64,000 nt of DNA, taken from contig NC_035164.2 of the NCBI RefSeq assembly GCF_001659605.2, positions 11,072,965 through 11,136,964 on the forward strand. The letters are read 5' to 3'. The translations under genes were made by a program, and so were the position numbers. How positions within the stretch are numbered: position 1 is the first letter of the stretch; every line of letters starts with the position of its first letter. The notes under the pieces are model-generated. The model saw only the letters and a list, made by a program, of their open reading frames with translations, did no database searches and was not told where the DNA came from. Positions 3,272 through 33,596 of this stretch are shown piece after piece. This DNA is from Manihot esculenta (taxonomy: Eukaryota > Streptophyta > Magnoliopsida > Malpighiales > Euphorbiaceae).

Positions 3272-3501
3272 CACTTTCGGCGGCAGGTTCGGCGGCCGAA
3301 AGTCCCTCCAGAGCCGAAAGTCAGGCAGGTTCGGCGGCAGAAACTCCCAGACAGAGGCGAAACTCATGCATGTTCGGCGGCACCTTCGGCGGCCGAAACT
3401 CCCAGACAGAGACGAAAGTCTCCTTTCGGGGGCAAGCTTCGGCAGCCGAAGGCTGCTTCCACAAGAGGGTTCGGCGGCCGAAAGTCCTTTCGGCTGCCGA
3501 A
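3272..3501. repeat. TTCGGCNGCCGAA palindrome cluster in LTR A
   Basis: Exact 13-bp sites at 3288, 3385 and 3470 (central G), 3438 (central A) and 3489 (central T), embedded in a semi-regular pattern with CAGAGACGAAAGT-type linkers and half-sites. The GC-rich cluster stands out from the AT-rich LTR around it. Related clusters are in LTR B, the nested gypsy LTRs and the Athila-like LTRs. A second small cluster of exact sites is at 4082, 4102 and 4173. Confidence 0.8.
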
Positions 3502-4017
3502 CTTGGTTTCTCCCGAAGGGCAGAAACTTGGTTCAAACATGCACAAATGCCTCAAACTCATGCCATTATGCATTTAGCTCAACCAAAGCATGCATACAAG
3601 CTCCTAGGGGTCTCAAACTACCTTAAACCCCAACTACAACACATCAAGCAACACAAATCCAACATACATTGCTCAAAACATAACATAAACTCAAAAACCT
3701 AACTATAAGCTAAACATGCATTCTACCCCATAGATCTTGCATAAAACTTACTTTAAACATGAAATGAGCTTAAGATCGGCTCTTACCTCTTGAAGATCGA
3801 GAGAGAGACGACCTAAAACTCGGAGGTGGGAGAGAGTGGGTTCTTGAACCTCAAAGCTCCAAAACTTGCTTTAAACTCGAAAATCTTCAAAACAAAGCAA
3901 AAACTTGTGAAAATCTTGAAAGATTTGAAGGAAAGACTCAAGGATTGGTGAGGAACGGCGGAGAGCTCACCTTGGCCGACAATGGGGAGAAAAACTCGCC
4001 CGTTTTCGGCTAAGGGA

Positions 4018-4027
4018 CCCTTTTATA
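4018..4027 (-). promoter_or_regulatory. TATA box of LTR A
   Basis: The minus strand reads CTATAAAAGGG, a strong plant TATA element in the expected place for the U3/R boundary. LTR B has the equivalent TATAAAAGG at 6404-6412. Confidence 0.6.
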
Positions 4028-4363
4028 GTGGCTGGCCAGGCCACGTTCAGGGGCCAAACGTGCCTCCGCATGCATGCCATGTTCGGCGGCCGAACTTGAG
4101 GTTCGGCGGCCGAACCTGGACTTCCCTCACTTATGCCTTCGGGGGCCTAAAGCACGCCCGAAATGCATGCATGTTCGGCGGCCGAACCTGAGTTTTCCTC
4201 CAAGGGTGTTTTCATTCAAAAAATCATTTCCTCTTTACTTAAAATCATCAAAAACATTAAAACATTTCATGAAAACATGGTTTTACCCTTCTAGAGGTCT
4301 CCGACATCCGAGATTCCACCGGACGGTAGGAATTCCAATACCGGAGTCTAGCCGGGTATTACA

Positions 4364-4476
4364 TCTACATCCTATCCTAATGGACATGAGTTTCCCTATT
4401 GTGCTTGCCCTTCTAGAACATCTATGAGCTCGACACACTCCAGGTCCGACCATATGGACCTAGGGCTCTGATACCA
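4364..4476 (-). other. Leader and primer-binding site of truncated gypsy element B
   Basis: About 113 bp that align with the leader of element A at about 1950-2061 (both contain CATCCTATCCTA.TGGACATGA) and end with a tRNA-Met primer site at 4464-4476. The rest of element B's interior is not present to the left, because LTR A begins here. Either A inserted into B's leader or the two were joined by recombination; the far side lies outside the window. Confidence 0.7.
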
Positions 4477-4479
4477 ATC

Positions 4480-6737
4480 TGTAACGATCCAGAAACTGGA
4501 CCGCTACCAGCGCTAAGATCCAAATCGGCATAAGGCCGCTGGGACCCGTAGCAAGCCTAACATACATCCTATATACCTGTTAAATCCCATACATGATCAA
4601 ACATATACATAAAAATTTTTAACTTTCTCTTTCATTTACCAAGCTTAATCTGTGCATGCACAAACTCATAAACATAAAACCCCACACTGGAGCCCTCATC
4701 AAATGCTCCAATGGGGCAACATATCATACATCAAGCTTGGCTTACATAAACATCAATAAAACATTTCATTAAAAGATCATGTACCAAAAAGGTATTAACA
4801 TACTCTAGGGCCAAGCACAATTCTATCCTCAATACAATTCTTTACATTACATTACATTACTATACTTTACATTACAATGTCTTTCTCATGTCCACAGCTA
4901 GCTATTACATAAAACATGACTTTACTCTTGTTGACTTCCTGGTCTATCCCATACCTGCAAACCTGGGGGTTAAGGGAATGGGGTGAGCTACTAGAGCCAA
5001 GTGAGCAGAATAGTAAAAACATTATGTTAAAATTCATGCTTTCATGAAATGCATCACATCACAAACAAATCACATCAAGGATGGACTTGTCACCAATAGC
5101 CCCCCCACACATTCCAATAGTGCCAGGGGCATAGCATGGGCCTCACTGGTCTTTCTCTTACATAACATAACATAACATTCCAATGTGCCAGGGGCATAGC
5201 ATGGGCCTCACTGGTCTTTCTCTTACATCGTACCAGGGGCGTAGAATGGGCCTCACTGGGCTTACATATCATACCATATCATGTCATCATACGAGGGCTA
5301 ATGGATCATTCAACACCCATCCACATCAACATTATATTATGTAATGCAACATATTCGTGAATTCTAGTGCAAACAACCTAATATATCACATGGCATTCGT
5401 GATGCATGAACATGCTCTAAATTTATTTGCTTTGAAACGTAAAGATCCATTCTACTCACCTCAGGCTAACTCTGAAAAGACATTGAAGCAGCTATCTCAC
5501 TGCTGGGGTCCTCGGTTTCTCGGGTCCGAACCTACACAGGTGGACTCAAATGAGGGACCAAACATACATGAACATGACTCTAAACTATTCCCCAAAAACC
5601 CCCTAAAACACCTTAAAACGATCACTGAAATCATGCAAAAGAAGGCTGAACAGGGCACTTTCGGCGGCAGGTTCGGCGGCCGAAAGTCCCTCCAGAGTCG
5701 AAACTCAGCCACTTTCGGCAGCACCTTCGGCGGCCGAAAGTGGTTCCAGAGCCAAAACTCGTGCATGTTCGGCGGCCGAAACTCCCTTCCAGAGCCGAAA
5801 GTCCAACTTTCGGGGGCAGGGTTCGGCAGCCAAAAGCTTGCCTCCACAGGCAGGTTCGGCGGCCGAAAGTCCCTTCGGCGGCCGAACCTGAGCTCTTCCA
5901 GAATGGTAGAACTCAGCCTCCTCATGCACAAGTAGCCTCCAAACCTTCCAAAACAACCCAAAACCTCACTTGCTCTCTCCCAAACATGCATACACACTCC
6001 CTCATGCATATAGGGTATAAACTAGCTTAAACCTCTCAACATAACATCACAGAAACATACATTAGGCGTAAAACCCACATAAACCTTAACATGCACATCT
6101 ACCCACACACAAGCATTAAAAACTCCTTAAAACTTACTTAAAACAAAGAAAAGGGTGTGGATCTACACTTACCTCTTGAAGATCGAGGGTTGGTGCGATC
6201 CCTAACTTGGAGATGGGAGAAATCTAGCTCCTTGGGTCTCCAAGCTCTAAAACTTGATCTTAAGCTCAAAACTTCAAAACCCAAGTTAAAACTTGTTAAA
6301 ACTTGAAAGATTTGGAGAAAGAACATGAAATCAACCAAAGGAAGACATGAACTCACCCTAGCTCGAGAATGGGAAGAAAACTCGCCCATTTTCGGTCTGA
6401 GGGCCTTTTATAGGTGGCCGGTCAACCACTTTCGGCGGCCAAAGCTGCTTCCAAAACCTCACCACGTTCGGCGGCCGAACATGGAGTTCGGCGGCCGAAA
6501 GAAAGCCACTTCCGGAAGCCTAACGTGCCCCCTAAACTATCCCATGTTCGGCAGCCGAACCTGGAAATGCTCTCCTTGGTCTTTTCTTTTCAAAACTCAA
6601 TTTCTTTCTTACTTAAAACCATAAAATACATGAAAACATTTTATGAAAACATGTTTTTACCCTTCTAAAGGTTTCCGACATCCGAGATTCCACCGGATGG
6701 TAGGAATTTCGATATCGGAGTCTAGCCGGGTATTACA
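4480..6737 (-). repeat. LTR B: 5' LTR of a second Tekay-like gypsy element
   Basis: A 2258-bp LTR with the same termini, subrepeats (5122, 5187, 5232), TATA box (6404-6412) and palindrome clusters as LTR A, but clearly diverged, so it is a separate insertion. Exact palindromes are at 5672, 5725, 5768, 5854 and 5874 in the transcribed part, with 6467, 6487 and 6547 upstream of TATA. Its right edge (ATTACA, 6737) abuts the 3' region of the old Athila-like element H, so B inserted into H. Confidence 0.8.
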
Positions 6738-7026: not shown

Positions 7027-7057
<31 letters not shown>

Positions 7058-9310: not shown

Positions 9311-10965
9311 TGATAGAGCATATTTTAGCCTATATTATCATGATCTTATTGATATTTATTTGCACCTATTCTATCTAATTTTGTAGTTTTAAACATGTTT
9401 TGCAAGTATTAGGTGTAAAGAAGCAATTTGGAGAAAATGCTCTTAAAAATACCAAAAAGTGCCAAAATTGGAAAAGCCACCTTCGGCAGCTCTTTCGGCG
9501 GCCGAACCTTCGGTCCAGAGGCGAAACTCAACCTCCTTCGGAAGCACTTTCGGGAGCCAAAACTGCCAGTCATCTTCGGCGGCACTTTCGGCGACCGAAC
9601 TTTCACTCTAGAGACGAAAGTCACCTTGTGCCGCCGAACCTTGCGTTTAGAGCAGAAAGTCCTGCCTCCGAAACTTAACTTAGGCAGCTGAAAGTGCCCC
9701 CGAACAGCCTCCTTCCTATTCAATGAGCCAAATCTTGGAGATCACATGTTTCCTACATAGTGCCATGCTCATTCAAAATTCAAATCAAGGCTCCACCTTC
9801 CTCATTAGTGCATAAATCTTCTTGGACACACCATGGACAGCAATTAAAAGACCAAAATGCCCAACCTTGCCCTCACATGCACACATAAGGCCAAGGGCAC
9901 TTTGGGCAAATCTCTACAAGATGCATGGACAACCACCAAACCCTAAGGAGCCTCTCAAGATCTATTTAAAGGCTTCAAGAAGATCAAGAACTCATCATCT
10001 CCCATCAAGGATTGATCAAGAATTCGGCAAGGCTTCTCCTAGGCCTCCTCCACCTTAGTTCTTCATCTTTTTGCTTTCTTTTCTTTGATTTTCTGTTTTG
10101 GTTAAGCCATGAGTGGCTGAAACCCTTATTCTAGTTGAAGTTTGGTTGAAACTAAGGTTGTTTAAAAGGTTGTGAGATCTGAACATAAAGTGTTTGATTT
10201 TGGTTTATTCAATATTCATGCAATTGTGCTTAATTCCAAGATTACTTTGTTGTTTTGATCAAATTGGCCATTTGATTCTTGATTGCAAAGTTAATTGATT
10301 GTTGGTTAGGATATTTGTTAGTCCGCAATTGCTGGAAATATTCTGTCCATAGAACACTTGGTGTAAAAACTAGGGAATTGCATGATCTAGCACCATCTTC
10401 AAGCGTTTGGAGTAGCTAGGGTTGGATCTTTCTAGTTCTTTATGCAATTGACAATTGTTTTGATGCCTTTGGCCCAAGGACGTACCTTGGCAATTTGTTG
10501 ATTAGTAATTGATTAGAGGATGTTCCTTAATTAATTTGTTCTTAAGGAAAGACATGGTGGTGTGAAGCGTTTTCTATTCCCATAACTAACCTATTGATTC
10601 AATCAAGGTAATCTAAGTTTCAATGATCAACCCAAACAACCAAAGTGGATCCATATCTTCAACTAGACTTTTCTCATATTGATTTCCTCTTTTATTTTAA
10701 TTACTTGTTGTTTTAATTGCTTTCAATAGTTGTTAGTCAAATCATCTCAAAACCCCCCCTTTTTTACTTTATTGCACTTTACTTTTATTCTACTTTCAAT
10801 TACTTGCTTTCAATTGTGTTCCCAATTAGTTCTCTTGGTCTTGATTGAGAAAAATAAATAGGTAATCAATTCTCTGTGGATTCGATCCTTCACCACTATC
10901 TGCAGTTGTAAATTGTTGATAACCAAGAAGGTTATTTTTGATCGGCTTCGACAACCGCACTGTCA
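9311..10965 (+). repeat. Athila-like LTR 1
   Basis: A 1655-bp LTR, TGATAGAG..ACTGTCA, preceded by target-site copy CCTGT (9306-9310) and followed by a primer site. TATA-like TATTTAAA is at 9963-9970. The palindrome cluster is at 9480-9700 (exact copy 9494-9506), upstream of TATA. Compared with LTR 2, about 16 bp is missing near 9632, removing part of the cluster. Confidence 0.9.
9963..9970 (+). promoter_or_regulatory. TATA-like box of Athila LTR 1
   Basis: TATTTAAA in the middle of the LTR, conserved in LTR 2 (16829-16836). The palindromic cluster lies roughly 260-480 bp upstream, as a U3 promoter-distal element would. Confidence 0.45.
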
Positions 10966-10970
10966 AAGAT

Positions 10971-10988
10971 TGGCGCCGTTGCCGGAGA
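10971..10988 (+). other. Primer-binding site, copy 1
   Basis: TGGCGCCGTTGCCGGAGA, five bases after the LTR. This is the Athila-type primer site; copy 2 (17835-17852) reads TGGCGCCGTTGCCGGGGA, so copy 1 has one substitution. Confidence 0.85.
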
Positions 10989-11020
10989 ATTGATTTTACT
11001 TGTTTGTTTATTTTTCTTTC

Positions 11021-13256
11021 ATGACCAGGTCTGAGCATAGGGACACTCTGCCCTTTGATCCAAAAATTGAACGCACCCTCAGAAGGCTAGGAAAGCAAGC
11101 CTCTACACCTGAAGAACATTCTGCCCAACCTTCGGCCGCCGAACCATCCCAACATTCGGCCGCCGAAAGTCCTTCACTCCAGCAACCTAATCTTGCACCA
11201 ATGGCAGAACCCCAAGCACCAGCTGCTGCCCCCAATGGACAAGCTGTCCAGAATCAAATAGTTCAAGAAAATCCAGCAATAAGACCTCAAGTGCCAAGGG
11301 AAAGAACCATGAGAGAGTTAGCAACACCTATAGGTGATCAAGCACCTCTTTGCATCACCTATCCACCTCTTACAGTTCCCTTTGAACTCAAGACAGGTTT
11401 GATACATCTACTCCCTAAATTTAGAGGTGGAGAGAACGAAAATCCACACAAGCACCTAAAAGAATTTAGTATTGTTTGTTCATCCATGAGACCTCAAGGG
11501 ATCTCTGAAGATCATGTTAAATTGAGAGCTTTTCCCTTTTCATTAGATGACTATGCTAAGGATTGGTTATTTTATTTGCCACCTGGATCTATAACTTCTT
11601 GGGATGATATGGTCCAAACCTTTTTGGACAAATACTTCCCACCATCTAAATCAATTGGCATAATAAGAGAAATCACTAGCATAAGACAAAAACAAAATGA
11701 GGACTTGTATGATTATTGGGAAAGGTTTGAAAGACTATGTACAGGTTATCCACAACATGATATGTCAGACAAGACCCTTATACAATTCTTCTATGGAGGA
11801 TTGATTCCATCAGAAACGAAACTCATAAATGTAGCTTGTGGAGGATCCATCCTATACAAGTCACCAAGGGAGATGAAGGAGTTGATATCTACTCTTGCAG
11901 CCTCATCTAGGCAGTATGGAGAAGAAAGGCAACTACAAAGAGCCAATGAGGTAAGTTTTCCCACTATCTCTAAACTAACATCTGTTATGAAAAATATTGT
12001 CGTAGATGTTGTGCAACAGATGCAAACACCCCAGCCACCTAGGCCATGTGGGATTTGCTCATATGTAGGACACCCGACTGATCAATGTCCTATACTCCAA
12101 GAAGACCACCAGCAAGCAAATGCCATTGGAGGGTACCATAACCAGCCCAGACATGATCCGTACTCAAACACTTACAATCCTGGCTGGAGAGACCATCCCA
12201 ATTTCAGCTATGGAAGGGCCAACAATACCCAGAACTACCAAAGAAATCAAGCCCAACCAGCACCTCAAAACTCTAATCCAAGCCTTGAAAAGATGATGGA
12301 GACACTGATAAGCACCATGCAAGGCGTGCGACAAGACCTAGGACAAATGACCACCTCTATAAGCCAACTGCAAACCCAAGGCAAACTCCCTTCTCAAACT
12401 GAAACTAACCCTAGACAGAATGTCAGTGCCATTACTTTGAGAAGTGGCAAAGAGCTTCAAGATGCTAGTCATGAGCAAGAGAAGGAAGTTGCACCAAAGA
12501 CACCTTCTGCGCAAGAACCAAGGCCGCCTGAAGCCTCTCCATCACAATCTGAACCACCTCCTGTGCACAAGACTGATCCAAAAGTAAGTTTTCACATTCC
12601 ACCTCCTTTTCCAAAAAGATTTGAAAGAACGCAAAAAGAAAAAGAAGAAAAGGAGATCCTTGAGACTTTTAGAAAAGTGGAAATCAACATACGACTGCTA
12701 GATGCTGTCAAGCAAATTCTTAGGTATGCAAAATTTCTGAAAGAGCTTTGCACAAATAGAAGAAAGCTTGCTGAAAGAGAAAAAGTAAGTGTAGGTGAGG
12801 TAGTTACTGCTGTTATTAAAAGAGAACTCCCTACCAAATGCAAGGACAAAGGTATGTTCGCTATCTCTTGTAAGATTGGGAATGTTGGTATCAAGAAAGC
12901 CATGTGTGATCTTGGTGCATCCATTAATGTCATGCCTCTCTCCATCTATAGATCTCTAAATGCATGTGCACTAAAAGAAACAAGAGTTGTGATACAACTA
13001 GCTGATAGATCTGTGGTATACCCCATAGGAGTTCTAGAAGATGTCTTAGTCCAAGTAGATGAACTTGTCTTTCCTGCTGATTTTTATGTAATTGATACTA
13101 AGGAAGATAGTTGCAATACTAGTTCTGACATTCTTCTTGGACCTCCTTTCTTAAGTACTGCTAGAACTAAAATCGATGTGCATGATGGTACTCTTACCAT
13201 GGAATTTGAAGGGGAGGTCATTAAGTACAATGTCTATGATGCCAGAAATACCCACA
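11021..13256 (+). pseudogene. Athila-like gag-protease, copy 1 (frameshifted at the end)
   Basis: Starts at the Met of MTRSEHRD (11021); the same start is seen in element H and copy 2. The N-terminal 70 residues include two TTCGGCCGCCGAA sites (11131, 11155). A retrotransposon gag domain (about residues 130-270; LPKFRGGENENPHKHLKEF) is followed by a CCHC knuckle (CGICSYVGHPTDQC, near 12050) and then the retropepsin domain (CDLGASINVMPLSIY near 12905; DILLG.PFLSTARTKID near 13130). Compared with copy 2, one base is missing between 13244 and 13245, throwing the frame so that translation ends at 13300. Otherwise it is nearly identical to copy 2. The protease Gly-Cys-Pro of copy 2 is Gly-Pro-Pro here. 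Confidence 0.88.
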
Positions 13257-15093
13257 TGATATGTCCCCAGTTTATGGCCTTGATATTATTGATTGTTTAA
13301 GCCAAGATGTGTTTAATGAGAATGAAGATTGTATGCTGGATGATGATCTTTGCAGGACTGAAAACCTGAAACTGAAAGAAGCCATCTGCAGCATTCAGCA
13401 ATTAGAGGTAACGCAGACAGAAGACATTCGGCCTCCGAACACAGCCTACATTCGGCCGCCGAACCCCACTGCCCTTCAGACACCAGATTCTGTTGCACCA
13501 CTTTTGCAACACATTGCGCAGAAGGAAGACGTCCTTCGGCCGTCGAACATCTCTCAGCCGCCGAACCCAACCGACTTTCAGAAGCCGAATCCATCGCCAC
13601 AGTTCATTGCGCAAACTGAAGACCTTCGGCCGCCGAACTCAGACACTTTTCGGCCGCCGAACCTCTCACAGCAGTCTCCAACGCAAGCAAGCTCTTCCAT
13701 CCCGCCTCCTTTACAGTCAAACCCAGAACAGTACCTTCCAGATTCTGAAGAGTGTAAGGATGATCTCCTTGAACAAATCTTCCTTGCCCAGTCTGATGAA
13801 CCATGGTACGCAGATATGGTAAACTACTTGGCCAAAGGTAACTTACCTTCTGACATGCCAAAGCACACTAAAGATAAGATAAAAAAAGATGCCAAATACT
13901 ATGTTTGGGATGAGCCATATTTGTGGAAACATTGTGCTGACCAAATGATAAGGAGATGCATTCCTGATCAAGAAATAGCCTTTGTACTCACTTTTTGTCA
14001 TTCATATAGGTTTGGAGGACACTTTGGTCCAAGGAAAACTGCTCATAAGATATTTGAAAGTGGCCTATTTTGGCCCACAATGTTTCGAGATGCCTTTCTG
14101 TTCTGCAGGTCATGCGTTAGATGTCAACAGACTGGAAATCTGAGCAAAAGAAATCAAATGCCACAGAACCCCATCATGGTCTGTGAGGTATTTGATGTTT
14201 GGGGCATAGACTTCATGGGACCATTCCCACCATCCTTTGGATACACTTATATCATCCTTGCAGTGGATTATGTGTCCAAGTGGATGGAAGCTAGAGCAAC
14301 TAAGACTGATGATGCCAAGGCAATAGTAGACTTTGTAAAGACCAACATCTTTGCCAGACATGGAGTACCAAAAGCAATCATCAGTGATAGAGGGACCCAT
14401 TTTTGCAATAGGGTGGTGGAAAGCCTTCTCAGAAAACACAATGTCATACATAGGACATCCACAGCCTACCACCCTCAAACAAATGGGCAAGCTGAAGTCT
14501 CCAATAGGGAAATCAAAGCCATCCTTGAAAAGACGGTCTCCCCAAACTGAAAAGATTGGAGTACAAGATTAGAAGATACTCTATGGGCCTACAGAACAGC
14601 CTATAAGACCCCCATAGGTATGTCTCCCTACAGATTGGTCTATGGAAAAGCTTGTCACCTCCCAGTTGAGCTTGAACACAAGGCATATTGGGCAGTAAAG
14701 AATTGCAACATGGACCTTAAGGAAGCTGGACACCACCGCAAGTTGCAACTGCAAGAGCTAGAGGAAATAAGACGAGATGCATATGAGAACTCTTAGAACT
14801 ACAAAACAAAAACCAAAGCCTCCCATGACAATCATCTTTCAAGAAAACAATTTGAGGTTGGTGATAAAGTTTTACTCTTTCACTCTCGGTTGAAATTGTT
14901 TCCAGGGAAGCTACGGTCTAGGTGGATTGGACCATTCATGGTAGAACATGCCTACCCACATGGAGCTGTAGACATCAAAAGCATAGAAACTGGAAAAATC
15001 TTCAAAGTGAATGGACATCGTCTGAAACCATACTTTGAAGGATTCGCAGTACAAGTAGTGGAAGAAATTCCACTACAACCTCATTCTGCCTAA
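13257..15093 (+). pseudogene. Athila-like RPPN-repeat linker plus integrase, copy 1
   Basis: Directly after the protease comes about 350 bp coding Arg-Pro-Pro-Asn repeats (13420-13665; exact DNA palindromes at 13451, 13625, 13649 and several decayed ones), and then an integrase beginning near 13770 (DEPWYADMVNYLAKG). The integrase has the HHCC zinc region ([14 protein letters not shown] near 14010; CRSCVRCQQTG near 14108) and catalytic Asp (GIDFMGPF, about 14205), Asp (IISDRGTHF, about 14380) and Glu ([12 protein letters not shown], about 14485). Reverse transcriptase and RNase H, which should separate protease and integrase, are absent. Two stops break it: TGA 14548-14550 (copy 2 has CGA) and TAG 14794-14796 (copy 2 has TGG). 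Confidence 0.88.
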
Positions 15094-16159: not shown

Positions 16160-17829
16160 TGATAGAGTATATTTTAGCCCATATTATCATGATGTTATTG
16201 ATATTTATTTGCACCTATTCTACCTAATTTTGTGGTTTTAAACATGTTTTGCAAGTATTAGGTGTAAAGAAGCAATTTGGAGAAAATGCTCTTAAAAATA
16301 CCAAAAAGTGCCAAAATTGGAAAAGCCACCTTCGGCAGCTCTTTCGGCAGCCGAACCTTCGGTCCAGAGGTGAAACTCAACCTCCTTCGGAAGCACTTTC
16401 GGGAGCCAAAACTGCCAGTCATCTTCGGCGGCACTTTCGGCGGCCGAACCTTCACTCTAGAGACGAAAGTCACCTTCCTTCGACGGCACCTTCGGCCGCC
16501 GAACCTTGCGTCCAGAGCCGAAAGTCTTGCCTCTGAAACTTAACTTAGGCGGCCGAAAGTGCCCCCGAACAGCCTCCTTCCTATTCAATGAGCCAAATCT
16601 TGGAGATCACATGTTTCCTACATAGTGCCATGCTCATTCAAAATTCAAATCAAGGCTCCACCTTCCTCATTAGTGCATAAATCTTCTTGGACACACCATG
16701 GACAGCAATTAAAAGACCAAAATGCCCAACCCTTGCCCTCACATGCACACATAAGGCCAAGGGCACTTTGGGCAAATCTCTAAAAGATGCATGGACAGCC
16801 ACCAAACCCTAAAGAGCCTCTCAATATCTATTTAAAGGCTTTAAGAAGATCAAGAACTCATCATCTCCCATCAAGGATTGATCAAGAATTCGGCAAGGCT
16901 TCTCCTAGGCCTCCTCCACCTTAGTTCTTCATCTTTTTGCTTTCTTTTCTTTGATTTTCTGTTTTGGTTAAGCCATGAGTGGCCGAAACCCTTATTCTAG
17001 TTGAAGTTTGGTTGAAACTAAGGTTGTTTAAAAGGTTGTGAGATCTGAACATAAAGTGTATGATTTTGGTTTATTCAATATTCATGCAATTGTGCTTAAT
17101 TCCAAGATTACTTTGTTGTTTTGACCAAATTAGCCACTTGATTCTTGATTGCAAAGTTAATTGATTGTTGGTTAGGATATTTGTTAGTCCGTAATTGCTG
17201 GAAATATTCTGTCCATAGAACACTTGGTGTAAAAACTAGGAAATTGCATGATCTAGCACCATCTTCAAGCGTTTGGAGTAGCTAGGGTTGGATCTTTCTA
17301 ATTCTTTATGCAATTGACAATTGTTTTGATGCCTTTGGCCCAAGAACGTTCCTTGGCAATTTGTTGATTAGTAATTGATTAGAGGACATTCCCTAATTAA
17401 TTTATTCTTAAGGAAAGACATGGTGGTGTGAAGCATTTTCCATCCCCATAACTAACCTATTGATTCAATCAAGGTAATCTAAGTTTCAATGATCAACCCA
17501 AACAACCAAAGTGGATCCATATCTTCAACTAGACTTTTCTCATATTGATTTCCTCTTTTATTTTAATTACTTGCTGTTTTAATTGCTTTCAATAGTTGTT
17601 AGTCAAATCATCTCAAAACCCCCATTTTTACTTTATTGCACTTTACTTTTATTCTACTTTCAATTACTTGCTTTCAATTGTGTTCCCAATTAGTTCTCTT
17701 GGTCTTGATTGAGAAAAATAAATAGGTAATCAATTCTTTGTGGATTCGATCCTTCACCACTATCTGCAGTTGTAAATTGTTGATAACCAAGAAGGTTATT
17801 TTTGACCGGCTTCGACAACCGCACTGTCA
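16160..17829 (+). repeat. Athila-like LTR 2 (shared middle LTR)
   Basis: A 1670-bp LTR serving as 3' LTR for copy 1 and 5' LTR for copy 2. Its palindrome cluster (16330-16560) has exact copies at 16436 and 16491 and a central-A variant at 16343. TATTTAAA is at 16829-16836. The flanking bases are polypurine-tract sequence and primer-site spacer, not target-site duplications. Confidence 0.9.
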
Positions 17830-17852: not shown

Positions 17853-17884
17853 ATTGATTTTACTTGTTTATTTATTTTTCTTTC

Positions 17885-20135: not shown

Positions 20136-21958
20136 TTTATGGCCTTAATATTATTGATTGTTTAAGCCAAGATGTGTTTAATGAGAATCAAGATTGTATG
20201 CTGGATGATGATCTTTGCAGGACTGAAAACCTGAAACTGAAAGAAGCCATCTGCAGCATTCAGCAATTAGAGGTAACGCAGACAGAAGACATTCGGCCGC
20301 CGAACACAGCCTACATTCGGCCGCCGAACCCCACTGCCCTTCAGACACTAGATTCTGTTGCACCACTTTTGCAACACATTGCGCAGAAGGAAGACGTCCT
20401 TCGGCCGCCGAACATCTCTCGGCCGCCGAACCCAACCGACTTTCAGAAACCGAATCCATCGCCACAGTTCATTCCGCAAACTGAAGACCTTCGGCCGCCG
20501 AACTCAGACACTTTTCGGCCGCCGAACCTCTCACAGCAGTCTCCAACGCAAGTAAGCTCTTCCATCCCGCCTCCTTTACAATCAAACCCAAAACAGTACC
20601 TTCCAGATTCTAAAGAGTGTAAGGATGATCTCCTTGAACAAATCTTTCTTGCCCAGTCTGATGAACCATGGTACGCAGATATGGTAAACTACTTGGCCAC
20701 AGGTAACTTACCTTCTAACATGCCAAAGCACACTAAAGATAAGATAAAAAAAGATGCCAAATACTATGTTTGAGATGAGCCATATTTGTGGAAATATTGT
20801 GCTGACCAAATGATAAGGAGATACAATCCTGATCAAGAAATAGCCTCTGTACTCACTTTTTGTCATTCATAGAGTTGTGGAAGACACTTTGGTCCAAGGA
20901 AAACTGCTCATAACATACTTGAAAGTGGCCTATTTTGGCCCACAATGTTTCGAGATGCCTTTCTGTTTTGCAGGTCATGCGCTAGATGTCAACAGACTGG
21001 AAATCTGAGCAAAAGAAATCAAATGCCACAGAACCCCATCATGGTCTATGAGGTATTTGATGTTTGGGGCATAAACTTCATGGGACCATTCCCACCATCC
21101 TTTGGATACACTTATATCATCCTTGCAGTGGATTATGTGTCCAAGTGGGTGGAAGCTAGAGCAACTAAGACTGATGATGCCAAGGCAATAGTAGACTTTG
21201 TAAAGACCAACATCTTTGCCAGACATGGAGTACCAAAAGCAATCATCAGTGATAGAGGGACCCATTTTTGCAATAGGGTGGTGGAAAGCCTTCTCAGAAA
21301 ACACAATGTCATACATAGGACATCCACAACCTACCACCCTCAAACAAATGGGCAAGCTGAAGTCTCCAATAGAGAAATCAAAGCCATCCTTGAAAAGACG
21401 GTCTCCCCAAACCGAAAAGATTGGAGTACAAGATTAGAAGATACTCTATGGGCCTACAGAACAGCCTATAAGACCCCCATAGGTATGTCTCCCTACAGAT
21501 TGGTCTATGGGAAAGCTTGTCACCTCCCAGTTGAGCTTGAACACAAGGCATATTGGGCAATAAAGAATTGCAACATGGACCTTAAGGAAGCTGGACACCA
21601 CCGCAAGTTGCAACTGCAAGAGCTAGAGGAAATAAGACGAGATGCATATGAGAACTCTTGGAACTACAAAACAAAAACCAAAGCCTCCCATGATAATCAT
21701 CTTTCAAGAAAACAATTTGAGGTTGGTGATAAAGTCTTACTCTTTGACTCTCGGTTGAAATTGTTTCCAGGGAAGCTACGGTCTAGGTGGATTGGACCAT
21801 TCATGGTAGAACATGCCTACCCATATGGAGCTGTAGACATCAAAAGCATAGAAACTGAAAAAATCTTCAAAGTGAATGGACATCGTCTGAAACCATACTT
21901 TGAAGGATTCGCAGTACAAGTAGTGGAAGAAATTCCACTACAACCTCATTCTGCCTAA
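20136..21958 (+). pseudogene. Athila-like RPPN-repeat linker plus integrase, copy 2
   Basis: The linker (20280-20530) keeps more intact palindromes than copy 1 (exact at 20292, 20316, 20400, 20490 and 20514), each read as Arg-Pro-Pro-Asn. The integrase starts near 20650. Stops TGA 20771-20773 (TGG in copy 1) and TAG 20870-20872 hit the zinc-binding region. From 20945 the core is open to 21958. The first catalytic Asp is Asn here (GINFMGPF, codon AAC 21074-21076), whereas copy 1 has GAC. The second Asp (IISDRGTHF) and Glu (GQAEVSNRE) are kept. Reverse transcriptase and RNase H are absent, exactly as in copy 1. Confidence 0.88.
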
Positions 21959-23025: not shown

Positions 23026-23877
23026 TGATAGAGCATATTTTAGCCTATATTACCATGATCTTATTGATATTTATTTGTACCTATTCTACCTAATTTTGTG
23101 GTTTTAAACATGTTTTACAAGTATTAGGTATAAAGAAGCAATTTGGAGAAAATACTCTTAAAAATACTAAAAAGTGCCAAAATTGGAAAAGCCACCTTCG
23201 GCAGCTCTTTCGGCAGCTCTTTCGGCGGCTGAACCTTCGGTCCAGAGGTGAAACTCAACCTCCTTCGGAAGCACTTTCGAAAGCCAAAACTGCCAGTCAT
23301 CTTCGGCGGCACTTTCGGCGGCCGAACCTTCACTCCAGAGACGAAAGTCACCTTCCTTCGGCGGCACCTTCGGCCGCCGAACCTTGCGTTCAGAGCCGAA
23401 AGTTCTGCCTCCGAATCTTAACTTAGGCGGCCGAAAGTGCCCCTGAACAAGCTCCTTCCTATTCAATGAGCCAAATCTTGGAGATCACATGTTTCCTACA
23501 TAGTGCCATGCTCATTCAAAATTCAAATCAAGGCTCCACCTTCCTCATTAGTGCATAAATCTTCTTGGACACACCGTGGACAGCAATTAAAAGACCAAAA
23601 TGCCCAACCCTTGCCCTCACATGCACACATAAGACTAAGGGCACTTTGGACAAATCTCTAAAAGATGCATGGACAGCCACCAAACCCTAAGGAGCCTCTC
23701 AAGATCTATTTAAAGGCTTCAAGAAGATCAAGAACTCATCATCTCCCATCAAGGATTGATCAAGAATTCGGCAAGGCTTCTCCTAGGCCTTCTCCACCTT
23801 AGTTCTTCATCTTTTTGCTTTCTTTTCTTTGATTTTCTGTTTTGGTTAAGCCATGAGTGGCCGAAACCCTTATTCTA
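23026..23877 (+). repeat. Athila-like LTR 3, left part
   Basis: First 852 bp of the third LTR, with palindromes at 23314 and 23369 and an extra 12-bp duplication in the cluster near 23205-23225. It ends with target-site copy TTCTA (23873-23877), where the nested gypsy element begins. Confidence 0.9.
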
Positions 23878-26126
23878 TGTAACGACCCTAAAATGGACCG
23901 TCACCGGCGCTAGGATTCAGGTCGGCTTAAGGCCGCCAGAACCCGTAGCAAGCCTGCTATACTCTCTGTGTACCTGTAAATCTCATACATGATCATACAT
24001 TCTCTGTGAAAATAAAAATTCGTTTCTGAACCAAGGCTTAACCTGTGCATGCACTATCTCTGTACTCTGTAATCTGTACTCTGTACCCCTGACTAGAGCT
24101 TGCTCTAGATGGGTTAACTCATACCTGTTAAGCCTGGTTTTCACATACAAGAAAACATATATACATATACAGATCATGTACAACACATACATCACTAGGT
24201 TAAGCAACTATTACATCTCTTTCATATTACATGTCCACTCTAAGCTCTGCTGACTGTCCCTGTACACTGTACACTGACCCTGCAAAACTGGGGTTAAGGG
24301 AGTGGGATGAGCTCTACAGCCCAGTGAGGAGAACAGTAAAACAATGCATTAAAACATGATCTTATGGAATGCGTCATAACACATACATTTCACATCAAGA
24401 GTAAACCTGTCACCACATAGTCCCAGTAACTCTGTGCCAGGGCGTAGTCAAAGGCTCCTGGACTTCCTGTCATATATGTATATGTGTATATAACACCATT
24501 GTACTTACCATTGCCAGGGCGTAGTCAAAGGCTCCTGGACTTTACTATATACCTGCCAGGGCGTAGTCAAAGGCTCCTGGACTTCGCTATACTTGCCAGG
24601 GCGTAGTCAAAGGCTCCTGGACTTCCTGTCTGCGACTATGGGATCATTCAGCATTTACCCACACCAACAAATAACTATGCAATGCAACATATTCGTGATT
24701 ACTAATGCACTCAACCTATGGCATAATCATGATGCATGAGATATGCTAAAAGCAGTTTATGATTCAATTATAAGTCATATGTTTAGTTCCACTCACCTCT
24801 GGCTCTGGACTGACTTTGCAGGTTCAGTAAACTCTGGAGCAGTACTCACTGCTGCTCTCTCTGGTTCCTCTGGTCTGTATAAGCACATAAAGACGCAAAT
24901 GAGGGACCAAACTACCTTAAGAATAACTCTACTAAACTACCCAAGAAACCCCTTAATCTCACTCTACAACTCATGCAAAACATGCAAAAGAAAAACTGGA
25001 CAGAACACTTTCGGCGGCAGGTTCGGCGGCCGAATGTCCTCTCCAGAGACGAAACTCAAGCACCTTCGGCGGCCGAAACTCAATCTTCGGCGGCCGAACC
25101 CTTTCGGGGGCAAGCTTCGGGGGCCAAACCTCACTCCAGAGACGAAAGTCTCACACCTTCGGCGGCACCTTCGGCGGCCGAATCCCCCAAACAGAGCCGA
25201 ACATACAAAAACACTCAGGGGCAAGCTGTGGCAACCAAGCCACCATGCAGGAGGTTCGGCGGCCGAATGAACCTTCGGCTGCCGAACCTGAGTTCATCCA
25301 GAACTCAGCTTCAAAGGCAAACCATCTTCTCCTTCCCTTCAACCACTCAAAACATATATACGCCAACTCCTCAACATACATATACTCAAGTATATGATCA
25401 CAGGGGTCCAAAACTATCTAATAACCCCAAACAACAAATCAAACATAACACTGAAACATGTATACATGCATAAATCATCAAAACCACTACTTCTCCCTTA
25501 AACATGCATCTCGCTCCCTTAACTTCCATAAAACCTTCAGAAAACACATAAACAGGTTCAAGAGCATTACTTACCTCCTGGAACAAGAAGCTGAACACTC
25601 TGAACTAAGAAAAACGGACCAACTCTCTTCAAACTCTCAAACTTTCACAAACTTGAACTTTGGAACTCCAAAACCTTCAAACACCTTAACCACACACCAA
25701 AACGTTGCATGAGCTGGTAAAGAGGTGCAGATAAGTCATGGGAGACGTGGCCAATCTTCTGGACAGGGGTTGGAACCAACACCTGTCCAAATGCTGACTA
25801 AGGATGGCACAACAGCTGGCTGAGCAACTCAGCTTCGGCTGCCGAATCGCATGCAAAACCATGCAACATTCGGGGGCCGAACCTGAACTTCGGAAGCCGA
25901 ACATTGGGCACTTTCTGCGGCCGAACTTACCTTCGGCGGCCGAACTTGGCAAAAGTCTCCATAGACTTTTCTCTTCCAACCTCACACCAATTCAACTACA
26001 AAAAACACCTTAAAACACAGCATAACACTATAGGAAAACACAAATCCTACCCTTCTATAGAATGTCGACATCCCGGATCTCACCGGACAGTAGAATTCCG
26101 ATGCCGGACTCCAGCCGGATATTACA
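23878..26126 (-). repeat. Nested gypsy 3' LTR (left copy)
   Basis: A 2249-bp LTR. Four direct subrepeats begin GCCAGGGCGTAGTCAAAGG at 24436, 24513, 24555 and 24595. Palindrome clusters are at 25010-25290 (exact at 25022, 25065, 25086, 25170 and 25254) and 25834-25944. One site is decayed (25915, CTGCGG) that is intact in the right LTR. Confidence 0.92.
24436..24625. repeat. Nested gypsy LTR subrepeats (4 units)
   Basis: Four units of about 30 bp, GCCAGGGCGTAGTCAAAGG.., irregularly spaced; duplicated at 31906-32095 in the other LTR. They correspond in position and core (GCCAGGG.CGTAG) to the three-unit arrays of LTRs A and B but have diverged sequence and copy number. Confidence 0.88.
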
Positions 26127-26140
26127 TTCTCCCCCCCTTA
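26127..26140 (-). other. Polypurine tract of nested gypsy
   Basis: The minus strand reads TAAGGGGGGAGAA immediately before the 3' LTR. It primes plus-strand DNA synthesis. Confidence 0.9.
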
Positions 26141-26200
26141 AGAACATTCGTCCTCGAATGATCCTAAAACAAATAACACATGAAACGGAGGAAACTAACC

Positions 26201-29200
26201 TCAAAACAAATATGGATATTGCTGAAACATCGACTCCCGCGTCTCCCAAGTGCACTCTTCTAGATTATGGTGGTTTCACAGGACTTTCACCATCGGAATC
26301 TCTTTGTTCCTTAGCTGTCTGATCTGCGTGTCCAGAATCCGCACTGGCTGCTCTATATAGGTGAGATCTGTATGAATCTCCACCTCAGGCTCACTCAGAA
26401 CCTGATTCGGATCTGACACAAACTGTCGTAGCATAGAAACATGAAAGACCGGGTGAATTCTCTCCATAGAAGCAGGTAAATCCAGCTTATACGACACATT
26501 TCCGATCCTCTGCAACACCTCAAAGGGTCCAATGTACCGTGGAGCTAATTTACCCTTCTTCCCAAAACGAACCACTCCCTTCATCGGAGACACTTTCAGC
26601 AATACCATACTACCTTCCTGGAATTCTAACTGCTTCCTGCAAACGTCTGCATAACTTTTCTGTCTACTCTGAGCTGTCCTGATTCAATCTCTGATCTAGG
26701 GCACCACGCGACTCGTAAGCTCTACTAACTCTGGCCCTGCAAGAGCCTTCTCTCCTATCTCTTCCCAACAAACAGGGGATCTGCACTTCCTCCCATACAA
26801 AGCTTCATAAGGAGCCATCCCTATGCTAGCATGATGGCTGTTATTGTAGGCAAACTCCACCAAAGGTAGATGCTGCCGCCAAGAACCGCCAAAGTCTAAC
26901 ACACATAATCGAAGCATATCCTCTATGGTCTGGATGGTCCTTTCTGACTGTCCATCAGTCTGTGGGTGGAAAGCAGTACTAAAATCTAATCTCGTGCCCA
27001 TCGCACTTTGCAGACTCCGCCAAAAGCGGGAGGTAAACTGAGGTCCTCTGTCTGAAATTATAGACACTGGAACTCCATGTAATCTCACTATCTCATCCAA
27101 ATAGACCTGTGCCAACTTATCCACAGAATAGTTACTCCGTACTGGAAGAAAATGAGCAGATTTCGTGAGTCTGTCCACAATTACCCATATCGAGTCTATC
27201 CTGTTGGACGCTACTGGTAAACCTACTACAAAATCCATGGCTATGTTCTCCCATTTCCACTCTGGAATCGGTAATGGGTTAAGCATTCCGGCTGGTTTCT
27301 GATGCTCTAATTTCACCCTCTGACAAACCTCACAGGCTGTCACGAACTGCGCCACTTCCTTCTTCATGGCTGGCCACCAATAGACCCTTTTCAGATCCTG
27401 ATACATCTTGGTGGCTCCTGGGTGAACACTATACCTCGCATTATGAGCTTCCCTCATAATGTCTTCCTTCACATTGCCCCTATCTGGTACACAAAGTCGA
27501 CTCCCATAGCGAAGGATCCCTTTGCTGTCAAATCTGAACTCTACACTATTGCCTGACTGAACAGTCCTGGCAATTTTCATCAACTCAGGATCCTCATGCT
27601 GTCTCTGAGCTATCTGCTCCAGAAACACAGGTGTCACTCTCATCTGTGCTATCAACGCACCTGTACCAGACAACTCTAGCTGTAATCCCTCGTCAAAGAG
27701 CTTATAAAGCTCCATCACAACTGGTCTTCGCTCTGCTGCTATATGGGATAAACTGCCTAGTGACTTCCGGCTTAGGGCGTCTGCGACAACATTCGCCTTA
27801 CCCGGATGATACTGGATTTTACAATCATAATCACTGAGCAATTCGACCCACCTTCTCTGCCGTAAATTCAGCTCTCTCTGACTTAAGATGTACTGTAAAC
27901 TCTTGTGATCGGTGAAGATCTCGCATTTAACCCCGTAGAGGTAATGCCGCCACATCTTAAGTGCAAAGATAACTGCTGCCATCTCTAGGTCATGGGTAGG
28001 GTAATTCAACTCGTGCTTCTTCAACTGTCTAGAAGCATAAGCTATTACTCTATCACTTTGCATCAAGACACAACCCAATCCCACCCGAGACGCATCACAG
28101 AACACTGTGAACTCTTCATTACTGACAGGCAGAGCTAACACTGGTGCTGTGGTCAATCTCCTCTTGAGCTCTTCAAAGCTCGCTTCACACTGGTCTGACC
28201 AGATAAACTTCTGGTTCTTCTGAGTCAATTTGGTCATAGGAGCTGCTATCTTTGAGAAGTTCTGAACGAACCTCCTGTAGTAACCTGCCAGTCCCAGAAA
28301 GCTTTTAATCTCAGTCACTGTCGTGGGTCTGGGCCAGTTAGCTACAGCCTCTATCTTCTTGGGGTCTACCTCGATACCCTCTGCTGATACCACATGTCCC
28401 AAGAAGGCAATGCTCCGTAACCAAAACTCACACTTCGAGAACTTGGCATACAAACCATGCTCTCTCAGTGTCTGCAAAACGATCTTCAGATGCTGGGCAT
28501 GCTCCTCTGCATCTCTGGAATACACTAAGATATCATCGATAAACACAATGACAAAGTGATCCAGAAACTCACTGAATACCCTATTCATGAGATCCATAAA
28601 TGCTGCAGGGGCGTTAGTCAACCCGAACGGCATCACTAAGAACTCATAATGCCCATATCTGGTCCGAAAAGCTGTCTTAGGCACATCTGCCTCTCTGACT
28701 CTCAGCTGATGATACCCAGATCTCAGATCTATTTTCGAGAAACAACCTGCGCCAGCTAGCTGGTCAAATAGATCATCAATCTGAGGTAAGGGATACCTAT
28801 TCTTGATAGTGACCTTGTTCAATTGTCTGTAGTCGATACAAAGTCTGAGGGATCCATCCTTCTTTCTGACAAAGAGCACTGGAGCACCCCAAGGTGAGGT
28901 ACTAGGGCGGATGAAACCCTTATCTACCAAGTCCTGTAACTGTTCTTTTAACTCTGTTAACTCAGCTGGTGCCATCCTGTAGGGAGGAATAGAGATAGGT
29001 CGAGTACCTGGCAGTAATTCAAGTTCAAACCCTATCTCCCTATCAGGTGGTAGTCCTGGCAAATCGTCTGGGAACACATCGAGAAACTCTCGGACTACTG
29101 GTACTGTGGCTGGTTCCCTCACCTGACTGTCTAGCTCCCTCACATGAGCTAGAAACCCCTGACAACCCCTCCTAAGCAAACGACGAGCCTGAAGGGCTGA

Positions 29201-31099
29201 AAGCATACCTCTGGGTGTACCTCTCATGTCTCCTCTGAAGACACACTCTGACCCATCCTGGTCTCTAAGACTCACTAGCTTCTCTCGACAGTCCAACGTA
29301 GCACTATATGTAGATAACCAATCCATCCCTAGAATGACATCAAAATCCGTCAAATCTAGAACCATAAGGTCAGCTGGAAGGTATCTACCCTCGATAAACA
29401 CTGGACTGAAACGACAGACTGACACTGCCACTGATGGGTCACATCTAGGTCCACTGACCCAGAGAGGATACTCTAACTCAGAACTGATCAAACCCAATCT
29501 CTCTATGGCTCTCGAAGCAATAAAGGAATGAGAAGCACCGGGGTCCATCAAAGCATACACATCTGAACACCCAATGATGAGATTACCTGACACCACTGTG
29601 TTCGACGTGTTAGCCTCCTCCTGTGTCACTGTGAAAATCCGTGCTGGGGCTACCGAATTTCCACCTCGGGAACCTGCTGCTGAAGTAGAGGCTGCCCCTC
29701 TCCCTCTACCTCTGCCACTAGTCTGAGGCATGACTGGAGCTGCTGGCCGTACAACTGGCTGTACCACACTGCCTGAACTCATCTGCTGGGATGGTGCAAA
29801 AGTCATCTGCGGACAATCCCGAGCAATATGCCCTTCCTGTCCACATCGAAAACAAGCTGTAGATCCCAACCGACAAACTCCTCCATGTGGTTTTCCGCAT
29901 CGTCTGCAGACTGGAGCTGTGCCAGAGCTTGAGCCACTACCTATTCCCAGACCTGATTTGACTTTACTCCAGAACTTACTCTTTGTTCCTTTTGCTCTAT
30001 CCCACCTTTTACTGCTTGGTGTGGGGGCTTTAGACCCCGAAGCCTGTGCCTTTGACTGTTTCTGAATATTGGCACTAGCTTCCATTTTCCTGGCTGCGTC
30101 TACTATGGTATGGAAACTCTCCTTTTCTGCTGGAAGAATCAAGGAAGCATACCTGGGATGCAATCTCATAGTATATCTCCTTGCTTTCTTCTGATCAGTA
30201 TCATAGGCTTGACCCACGTACTGAAGCAGATCCAGGAACTTATCTGTGAATTCATCAACACTCATCTCATCTGTCTGTCTCAACTGTTCAAATTCAATTA
30301 CTTTCATCTCCCTCGAACTGTCAGGAAAAGCCCACCCTGCAAACTCATTGACGAACTCTCCCCATGACATGCTGTCCATTCTAGGCTCCACATAATTCTT
30401 AAACCATTCTCTGGCTTTCTTGCATTTTAATGTGAAACCTGCCATCTCAATGGCTCTCCTATCATCTGCTCCCAATTCACTGGTTATCATCCTAACTGCT
30501 CTGAGGTAATCAAATGGATCATCTCCCGTGTTGTATTTAGGAGCATCCAATTTCAAGTACTCCGTCATTTGTACTTTACCTCCAGATGAGCTAGGTTGAT
30601 GTTTGTCAACAACAGGGGCTACTGGTTCTGGTGGTGGTACTGGTTCATTTGGTTCTGGGTGTGCTGCACTTGGATGGGTAGGGGAAGAGGGATACATAGG
30701 ATATGGTGGATAATAAGGATAAGGCATATAAGGTATATAAGGAGGATATGGCACAAAACTCGAGTACTCCGACATACCTTCCCTCGGATACGCTGGATAG
30801 CCAAAACCTGAGGTCTGAGCACCTCCCTGCGACTCTCCCATACCTTCCTCAAAACTGCCTATACCCATGCTGTCATCTCTAGACTGATCAATCTCCATAG
30901 CTTCCCTCCTTTCCTCTGATCTTCCTCCCCTAGCTGTTCCTCTTCTGCTCTCGTCGACAGACCTTCTAGGGTCTATTGACGTACCTTCCCTGCTAGATCT
31001 CTGAGACCTTGCCCTTGGCAATGCAGGAGGACGAGCAGCTGGTCTCTCATTCTCTGGTGGGACTCCAGTCAATCGAGCTGATCGACGAGTTCCTCGCAT
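26201..31099 (-). pseudogene. Gag-pol polyprotein of nested Tekay-like element, three stops near the end
   Basis: A single frame of about 1.6 kb codons starting at [12 protein letters not shown] (31099; an in-frame Met at 31123 is also possible). In order, counting from 31123: Pro/Tyr-rich N-terminus, gag domain (about 180-300), CCHC knuckle [14 protein letters not shown] (about 424), protease ([10 protein letters not shown], about 521), reverse transcriptase with [13 protein letters not shown] (about 858), RNase H ([26 protein letters not shown]), integrase HHCC (from about 1228) and catalytic residues in [16 protein letters not shown] and [12 protein letters not shown], and a chromodomain-like C-terminus (EECTWETRESM). 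Open from 31123 to 26699; then TAG 26696-26698, TGA 26684-26686 and TGA 26276-26278 interrupt the integrase tail and the chromodomain. The frame itself is kept to its normal end at 26201. Confidence 0.93.
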
Positions 31100-31302
31100 C
31101 TTTACTTTCTGGAAACACAACATATAACTACGTTACCACATAAACATCACATATCAATCATACACATGCAACACTCATGGCATAGCATAGCAGATAGGAC
31201 TCAACACCCTATCCTAGTGGACATGATTTCCTATTGTGCTTAACCACTTCTACCCTCTATGAGCCCGACACTGTCTCTATAGGTCCGATCATGTGAACCT
31301 AG

Positions 31303-31315
31303 GGCTCTGATACCA
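31303..31315 (-). other. Primer-binding site of nested gypsy
   Basis: The minus strand reads TGGTATCAGAGCC, complementary to initiator tRNA-Met, three bases from the 5' LTR. The 31124-31302 leader resembles 1827-2061. Confidence 0.9.
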
Positions 31316-31318
31316 ATC

Positions 31319-33596
31319 TGTAACGACCCTAAAATGGACCGTCACCGGCGCTAGGATTCAGGTCGGCTTAAGGCCGCCAGAACCCGTAGCAAGCCTGCTA
31401 TACTCTCTGTGTACCTGTAAATCTCATACATGATCATACATTCTCTGTGAAAATAAAAATTCGTTTCTGAACCAAGGCTTAACCTGTGCATGCACTATCT
31501 CTGTACTCTATACTCTGTACTCTGTACCCCTGACTAGAGCTTGCTCTAGATGGGTTAACTCATACCTGTTAAGCCTGGTTTTCACATACAAGAAAACATA
31601 TATACATATACAGATCATGTACAACACATACATCACTAGGTTAAGCAACTATTACATCTCTTTCATATTACATGTCCACTCTAAGCTATTACAGATCTCT
31701 TTACTTTTCCTGTATTCTGCTGACTGTCCCTGTACACTGTACACTGACCCTGCAAAACTGGGGTTAAGGGAGTGGGATGAGCTCTACAGCCCAGTGAGGA
31801 GAACAGTAAAACAATGCATTAAAACATGATCTTATGGAATGCGTCATAACACATACATTTCACATCAAGAGTAAACCTGTCACCACATAGTCCCAGTAAC
31901 TCTGTGCCAGGGCGTAGTCAAAGGCTCCTGGACTTCCTGTCATATATGTATATGTGTATATAACACCATTGTACTTACCATTGCCAGGGCGTAGTCAAAG
32001 GCTCCTGGACTTTACTATATACCTGCCAGGGCGTAGTCAAAGGCTCCTGGACTTCGCTATACTTGCCAGGGCGTAGTCAAAGGCTCCTGGACTTCCTGTC
32101 TGCGACTATGGGATCATTCAGCATTTACCCACACCAACAAATAACTATGCAATGCAACATATTCGTGATTACTAATGCACTCAACCTATGGCATAATCAT
32201 GATGCATGAGATATGCTAAAAGCAGTTTATGATTCAATTATAAGTCATATGTTTAGTTCCACTCACCTCTGGCTCTGGACTGACTTTGCAGGTTCAGTAA
32301 ACTCTGGAGCAGTACTCACTGCTGCTCTCTCTGGTTCCTCTGGTCTGTATAAGCACATAAAGACGCAAATGAGGGACCAAACTACCTTAAGAATAACTCT
32401 ACTAAACTACCCAAGAAACCCCTTAATCTCACTCTACAACTCATGCAAAACATGCAAAAGAAAAACTGGACAGAACACTTTCGGCGGCAGGTTCGGCGGC
32501 CGAATGTCCTCTCCAGAGACGAAACTCAAGCACCTTCGGCGGCCGAAACTCAATCTTCGGCGGCCGAACCCTTTCGGGGGCAAGCTTCGGGGGCCAAACC
32601 TCACTCCAGAGACGAAAGTCTCACACCTTCGGCGGCACCTTCGGCGGCCGAATCGCCCAAACAGAGCCGAACATACAAAAACACTCAGGGGCAAGCTGTG
32701 GCAACCAAGCCACCATGCAGGAGGTTCGGCGGCCGAATGAACCTTCGGCTGCCGAACCTGAGTTCATCCAGAACTCAGCTTCAACGGCAAACCATCTTCT
32801 CCTTCCCTTCAACCACTCAAAACATATATACGCCAACTCCTCAACATACATATACTCAAGTATATGATCACAGGGGTCCAAAACTATCTAATAACCCCAA
32901 ACAACAAATCAAACATAACACTGAAACATGTATACATGCATAAATCATCAAAACCACTACTTCTCCCTTAAACATGCATCTCGCTCCCTTAACTTCCATA
33001 AAACCTTCAGAAAACACATAAACAGGTTCAAGAGCATTACTTACCTCCTGGAACAAGAAGCTGAACACTCTGAACTAAGAAAAACGGACCAACTCTCTTC
33101 AAACTCTCAAACTTTCACAAACTTGAACTTTGGAACTCCAAAACCTTCAAACACCTTAACCACACACCAAAACGTTGCATGAGCTGGTAAAGAGGTGCAG
33201 ATAAGTCATGGGAGACGTGGCCAATCTTCTGGACAGGGGTTGGAACCAACACCTGTCCAAATGCTGACTAAGGATGGCACAACAGCTGGCTGAGCAACTC
33301 AGCTTCGGCTGCCGAATCGCATGCAAAACCATGCAACATTCGGGGGCCGAACCTGAACTTCGGAAGCCGAACATTGGGCACTTTCGGCGGCCGAACTTAC
33401 CTTCGGCGGCCGAACTTGGCAAAAGTCTCCATAGACTTTTCTCTTCCAACCTCACACCAATTCAACTACAAAAAACACCTTAAAACACAGCATAACACTA
33501 TAGGAAAACACAAATCCTACCCTTCTATAGAATGTCGACATCCCGGATCTCACCGGACAGTAGAATTCCGATGCCGGACTCCAGCCGGATATTACA
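31319..33596 (-). repeat. Nested gypsy 5' LTR (right copy)
   Basis: A 2278-bp LTR almost identical to the left copy. It has about 29 bp (near 31690-31720) that the left copy lacks. Exact palindromes at 32492, 32535, 32556, 32640, 32724, 33383 and 33402. Confidence 0.92.

Follow-up and report, generated by a model that had tools for sequence, protein, structure and literature searches.

A palindromic site multiplied in two Ty3/gypsy retrotransposon lineages of cassava is a candidate recognition sequence for a dimeric protein

The 64-kb stretch of cassava DNA analyzed here, hereafter called the window, contained 51 exact copies of the palindrome TTCGGCNGCCGAA, compared with a mean of 0.00 and a maximum of 0 in 100 shuffles. 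The copies were carried by two lineages of Ty3/gypsy retrotransposons, with 33 in Tekay/Del-type LTRs, six in Athila LTRs and 12 in Athila coding sequence. We consider TTCGGCNGCCGAA to be a site under selection that is recognized in double-stranded DNA, read by a putative dimeric protein that is most likely a host factor, and serving as a U3 enhancer or in anti-silencing; we place the probability of this reading slightly above one half (roughly 0.55).

Copies of the palindrome in the window and the genome

The window copies were located between positions 3288 and 33414, and their central base was G in 29, C in 14, T in five and A in three. A preliminary description of this DNA had expected less than one copy per 64 kb by chance and had given more than 40 copies centered on G or C, of which we counted 43. 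The same three central-A copies (3438, 6547 and 16343) were found, as were the three central-T copies that it listed, but two others, at 32744 and 33304, had been missed. It had also placed no copy to the right of 34.4 kb, and we found none in 34433-64000; this half has a GC content of only 30% and contains a copia pol and a DUF4216 ORF. The copia-type element at 46982-51573 lacked the site and is young, since its 179-bp LTRs are identical. Other palindromes with 6-bp arms and a 1-bp center each occurred in the window at most three times.

The cassava assembly contained 333,204 exact copies of TTCGGCNGCCGAA in 640,357,471 bases (86 contigs), compared with four copies of the reversed pattern, likewise a palindrome of equal composition, which was used as the control. 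The central base was G or C in 273,055 of the genomic copies (82%) and A or T in 60,149. In the window and in the genome sample described below, neighboring sites in LTRs were preferentially 19-20 bp or 53-55 bp apart, and those in Athila coding sequence 24 bp apart; helical phasing of the sites was weak (R of at most 0.33 over 78 non-independent distances). Among viral contigs, site pairs were found in one, which carries three central-C sites in a short tandem repeat (L001:2535-2603).

Tekay/Del-type carriers

LTR A (2065..4363, minus strand) and LTR B (4480..6737, minus strand) each contained eight exact sites. In LTR A, five of these belonged to an array of ~55-bp units at 3263..3501 and three to a cluster at 4082..4186, upstream of the TATA box TATAAAA (4021..4027, minus strand, sense offset 337). 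The corresponding features of LTR B were an array of ~55-bp units at 5655..5886 with five exact sites, a cluster at 6431..6559 with three exact sites and one near copy, and a TATAAAA box downstream of this cluster at 6406..6412 (minus strand, sense offset 326). Between LTRs A and B was a leader fragment of 116 bp (4364-4479), one end of which resembled a PBS; the two LTRs were therefore arranged almost head to tail.

A further Tekay/Del-type element (23878..33595, minus strand, PBS TGGTATCAGAGC) was nested between the two copies of its TSD TTCTA at 23873-23877 and 33596-33600, and it carried eight exact sites in its 3' LTR (23878..26126, minus strand) and nine in its 5' LTR (31319..33595, minus strand). 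Outside the sites, this LTR pair was identical at 2144 of 2149 positions, which indicates a recent insertion. The ORF of the nested element matched gag, PR, RT, RNase H and IN, with RVT_1, RNase H and IN in the order of the Ty3/gypsy type. Its tail, interrupted by a stop, consists of letters that we take to be chromodomain-like, the piece scanned gave no Pfam chromodomain match, and the Tekay/Del label is likewise our presumed assignment. LTR A, LTR B and the nested element, which share LTR identities of about 61-75%, represent one lineage, so that the window contains two site-carrying lineages and not four. The carriers named in the preliminary description (LTRs A and B, the nested LTRs, three Athila LTRs and Athila coding sequence) agreed with our counts per element; its view that they belong to unrelated lineages was not supported, as they reduce to the Tekay/Del-type and Athila lineages of Ty3/gypsy elements.

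Athila carriers and sites within coding sequence

The Athila copies formed an LTR-interior-LTR-interior-LTR structure on the plus strand. LTR 1 (9311..10965, plus strand) was bounded by TG..CA, was followed by the PBS TGGCGCCGTTGCCGG, and contained an array at ~9469-9692 and one exact site. LTR 2 (16160..17829, plus strand) contained an array at ~16313-16557 and three exact sites, and the left piece of LTR 3 (23026..23877, plus strand) contained two exact sites, with the LTR resuming at 33601-34432 past the nested element. These LTRs are longer than the preliminary description had implied, and the third is split at 23877/33601. The whole of 9306-34437 behaved as one insertion, with a single 5-bp duplication, CCTGT, around it (9306-9310 and 34433-34437).

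The Athila ORFs matched gag, PR and IN, with gag and IN of the Ty3 type and with Athila proteins as relatives, and the elements have the PBS TGGCGCCGTTGCCGG, which we take to be of the Athila type. No RT or RNase H match was found in the ORFs scanned in either interior (11000-15090 and 17864-22000), where the order was gag-PR-linker-IN; the PR-linker-IN order was also observed in the annotated cassava protein P0125. In copy 2, a single open frame ran from PR across the linker into the start of the IN part. A search among viral contigs found no relatives of the Athila protein.

The two Athila copies contained five and seven exact sites in coding sequence, and all 12 were read in one of two frames, as SAAE in gag or as RPPN in the linker between PR and IN. 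In particular, the frame through the gag site pairs of copy 1 (11131..11167, plus strand) and copy 2 (17995..18031, plus strand) read SAAE, while RPPN was read at the exact sites of the copy 1 linker (13427..13661, plus strand) and at five exact sites of the copy 2 linker (20292..20526, plus strand). The site-bearing gag stretch was 17 residues longer than in the cassava proteins P0123, P0124 and P0125, from which the SAAE peptides were absent; this comparison covered proteins with a gag start, which is missing in P0126. The RPPN repeats were absent from P0125. At least two such site peptides were found in none of the best 120 of 1778 matches, and a single RPPN-like match was found in three proteins among the best 120 of 7182 matches. 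The presence of one DNA site in two reading frames is hard to explain at the protein level.

Position relative to the TATA box and CpG islands

In LTRs A and B, the final exact site of one cluster ended about 54 bp ahead of the TATA box, and a second cluster was located about 520-735 bp past it. The TATA-adjacent cluster was present in two of the three Tekay-type subfamilies. The nested element had no TATA box at the position seen in A and B, and its only upstream-half match, TATATAT at offset 766, lay between its clusters. The Athila arrays were located upstream of TATTTAA at LTR offset 654 or 671. All 51 window sites fell inside CpG islands, in 15 of the 22 islands called, a result that is partly circular because the sites themselves supply CpGs. 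They increase the CpG ratio of the LTRs; in LTR B, for example, masking the sites lowered it from 0.62 to 0.45.

Conservation of arms, center and flanks

From LTR A to LTR B, 95 of 96 arm bases were kept, compared with six of eight centers and 110 of the 165 bases in the near flanks. In the opposite direction, from B to A, the arms retained 88 of their 96 bases, since one B site aligns to a site-free stretch. All 12 arm bases were retained at seven of eight sites from A to B, as opposed to 219 of 2211 control windows, and at five of eight sites from A to the nested element, as opposed to 40 of 2211. CpGs in the LTR comparison were kept in 20 of 22 cases within sites and in 30 of 61 outside them.

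We extended this comparison to 14 LTR pieces, namely A, B, one LTR of the nested element, ten pieces found in the genome sample and one in L002, omitting pairs that were more than 93% identical or had fewer than 300 shared columns and sites that were mostly gapped in the partner. Identity was 98.6% in the arms (10215/10364), 85.6% at the centers (746/872) and 73.3% in the flanks (14947/20405), a contrast that is an upper estimate because the alignment may draw repeated sites together and the LTR copies are related. Windows remained intact at 746 of 872 sites but at only 2167 of 24900 controls, and the outer TTC/GAA was conserved to the same degree as the middle of the site. The constant arms and variable center noted in the preliminary description were thus borne out, and the equal rates in arms, center and flanks that it had named as the contrary outcome were not seen in the LTR pieces of the sample.

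Carriers in a genome sample

The genome sample consisted of 20 stretches of 10 kb (200 kb), taken at 3 Mb from 18 chromosomes and also at 9 Mb from C1 and C2. Sites were present in seven of the 20 stretches, and all 64 of them were inside DNA matching Tekay-type LTRs; the alternative raised earlier, with sites in all families at random positions, was therefore not what the sample revealed. Tekay-type library matches covered 18,322 (LTR) and 25,855 (interior) of the 200,000 sampled bases, about 22% together, and Athila matches covered 3,607 (LTR) and 2,420 (interior). Since the Tekay-type lineage alone carried sites in the sample, the abundance of the site appears, on this basis, to reflect mainly the success of one lineage. 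Two further stretches, picked for their listed sites, yielded 17 more, which included a pair at 24-bp spacing between Athila-like LTR pieces where one minus-strand frame encodes SAAE twice.

An array unit of ~55 bp in both lineages

The Tekay-type and Athila arrays shared a unit of ~55 bp, which consisted of a half site (TTCGGCGGCANN) and a full site together with a spacer containing CAGAGN(C/T)GAAANTC. Alignment of the spacers of nine Tekay-type and eight Athila units, which were chosen by eye, are not independent and include half-site-like letters, gave a mean score of 8.9, compared with 3.19 +/- 0.26 (largest 4.20) after shuffling; the controls scored 3.5 (reverse complement), 3.0 (TATA-proximal spacers) and 4.8 (coding spacers). 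The core CAGAGN(C/T)GAAANTC was found at 16 places on the plus strand, nine in Tekay-type and seven in Athila LTRs. When every site-like letter of the unit was masked, blastn revealed a modest similarity, with a best E of 0.001 compared with 0.20 for the reversed control among the matches listed, so that the case for a shared unit is carried mainly by the spacer test and the core. The unit lay on the same window strand in both lineages, although their transcription directions are opposite. A unit common to both lineages and opposite in orientation to transcription suggests that the module was probably passed between them. The passage of a cis-module between families, proposed earlier, is thus probable for these two lineages, but it was not supported for families beyond them.

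Alternative explanations

A role for nucleic acid structure instead of a protein is unlikely, in our estimate. Hairpins in transcripts might feed small RNAs, or the DNA might form cruciforms, as in a comparison with the LTR palindromes of maize Sireviruses, for which a 2016 follow-up study reportedly proposed hairpins or cruciforms. Compared with 200 shuffles, RNAs of the arrays folded better in every case (z of -4.99 and -3.94), although strong folding is expected of any repeated palindromes, and the hairpin of a single site is weak (-2.9 kcal/mol). In the available text of one report, small-RNA mapping hotspots coincide with palindrome-rich regions of Sirevirus LTRs (PMC5311732). However, in 282 kb, gap-1 palindromes with the arm TTCGGC numbered 132, compared with four for the next arm, and among palindromes in general the 132 copies of TTCGGCNGCCGAA were followed by 28 of the runner-up, which is an overlapping form of the same sequence. 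As no other palindrome was comparably repeated, the letters appear to be kept and not merely their pairing, and a pure hairpin role is disfavored because alternative stems should do equally well, yet none was enriched. Across 285,013 bases (the window, the sample and L002), 142 sites were exact, while 39 others differed at one arm position and 26 at two; none of the 26 double changes was symmetric, which has little power given that only about one was estimated by chance.

We regard it as quite unlikely that the binder would be encoded by a transposon, in the manner of VANC of the Arabidopsis VANDAL elements, with other families borrowing the site. VANC proteins bind short repeated motifs and remove methylation. 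As far as the available text describes them, their targets are short transposon motifs that tandem repeats have multiplied, and an unrelated, responding family likewise contains the VANC6 motif (PMC5735166). The cassava site resembles these targets in its arrays, its CpG content and its presence in more than one lineage. In contrast, VANDAL elements are DNA transposons with a known transposon-encoded binder, and the same text does not describe their motifs, including the mainly non-coding VANC21 targets, as palindromes (PMC5735166). The window ORFs scanned contained no candidate gene for a VANC-like protein. A passive origin, in which tandem duplication and gene conversion within LTRs generated the site incidentally and a successful lineage carried it along, is similarly improbable. 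Such an origin would be compatible with the recurrence of units at 53-55 bp and of pairs at 19-20 bp and with the confinement of the sampled sites to one abundant lineage, but conversion would homogenize entire units, whereas here only the 13 bp were constant and the spacers differed. The TATA-proximal and LTR-array spacers showed no similarity (3.0 compared with 3.19 for the shuffle), and carriage of the site in two reading frames of Athila coding sequence also counts against a passive repeat. Palindromes as insertion targets were considered and rejected, as the available text describes the influence of short palindromes on where elements insert as weak (PMC6911290) and the arrays would be left unexplained.

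Proposed function of the site

In the reading that we prefer, the protein recognizing TTCGGCNGCCGAA in duplex DNA would be a symmetric dimer and, most likely, one of the host's transcription factors. The sites, multimerized within the U3 of Tekay-type and Athila LTRs, would serve as an orientation-free enhancer or would hold the promoter open against silencing. Carriage of the site may have helped element copies to spread, and the ~55-bp unit may have crossed lineages through recombination or template switching. ERF and LBD factors are the binders that we presume to be candidates, and the literature searched gave nothing usable on LBD factors in this role. A fuller scenario is put forward only tentatively, with the odds rather against it. 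According to this scenario, two distantly related Ty3/gypsy lineages would depend on one palindromic site and would have exchanged the ~55-bp unit that bears it, one protein would read about 333,000 sites, and an advantage through activation or escape from silencing would have kept the site even in gag/pol, in two frames.

Comparison with known systems

The AP2/ERF GCC box has the core GCCGCC, for which full symmetry is unnecessary. GCCGCC was present on one strand in 43 of 51 window sites and in 273,055 of the 333,204 genomic sites, with 60,149 lacking this core; unlike the GCC box, the cassava site is fully symmetric, with its outer TTC/GAA as conserved as its middle. In plant retrotransposons such as Tnt1 and Tto1, repeated cis-boxes in U3 serve host factors and precede the promoter. 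Whereas these boxes are few and confined to one family, the cassava site occurs eight to nine times per Tekay-type LTR and about 333,000 times genome-wide, and it has copies in coding sequence. We found no description of TTCGGCNGCCGAA by title and abstract start in the partially covered palindrome literature on Athila/Tekay, gypsy/Sirevirus and cassava, and none of the papers covered matched the sequence itself.

The closest kind of known site is the RM box of Sireviruses. In the available text of the report on them, whose comparison set is Ty1/copia, RM boxes are CGG-CCG palindromes that occur at least eight times per element in the LTR, upstream of the TATA box and in CpG islands, with further internal clusters on the 5' side of ENV (PMC2829016). 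The cassava sites are alike in their CGG-CCG symmetry, CpG islands and clusters inside the element. The copy number of at least eight is reached by the four Tekay-type LTRs (eight to nine each), while the Athila LTRs have one to three sites, with five to seven in coding sequence. Proximity to the TATA box was seen in LTRs A and B; the nested element lacks a TATA box there, and Athila has only TATTTAA downstream of the array. Unlike the RM boxes of Ty1/copia Sireviruses as described in that text (PMC2829016), the cassava site is carried by Ty3/gypsy elements, one exact 13-mer occurs in two lineages, the internal clusters are located in gag and the PR-IN linker, in two frames, with none before ENV, and a second LTR cluster lies past the TATA box.

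The present findings extend the palindrome phenomenon of Sireviruses to Ty3/gypsy elements and provide a probable example of the movement of a regulatory unit between lineages. The contrast between arms, center and flanks, together with the two coding frames, makes a function at the DNA level testable. If one factor reads the site, it would have about 333,000 targets inside cassava transposons, which could titrate the factor; if true, this could shape the regulation of nearby genes and help to show why the Tekay-type lineage has been so successful.
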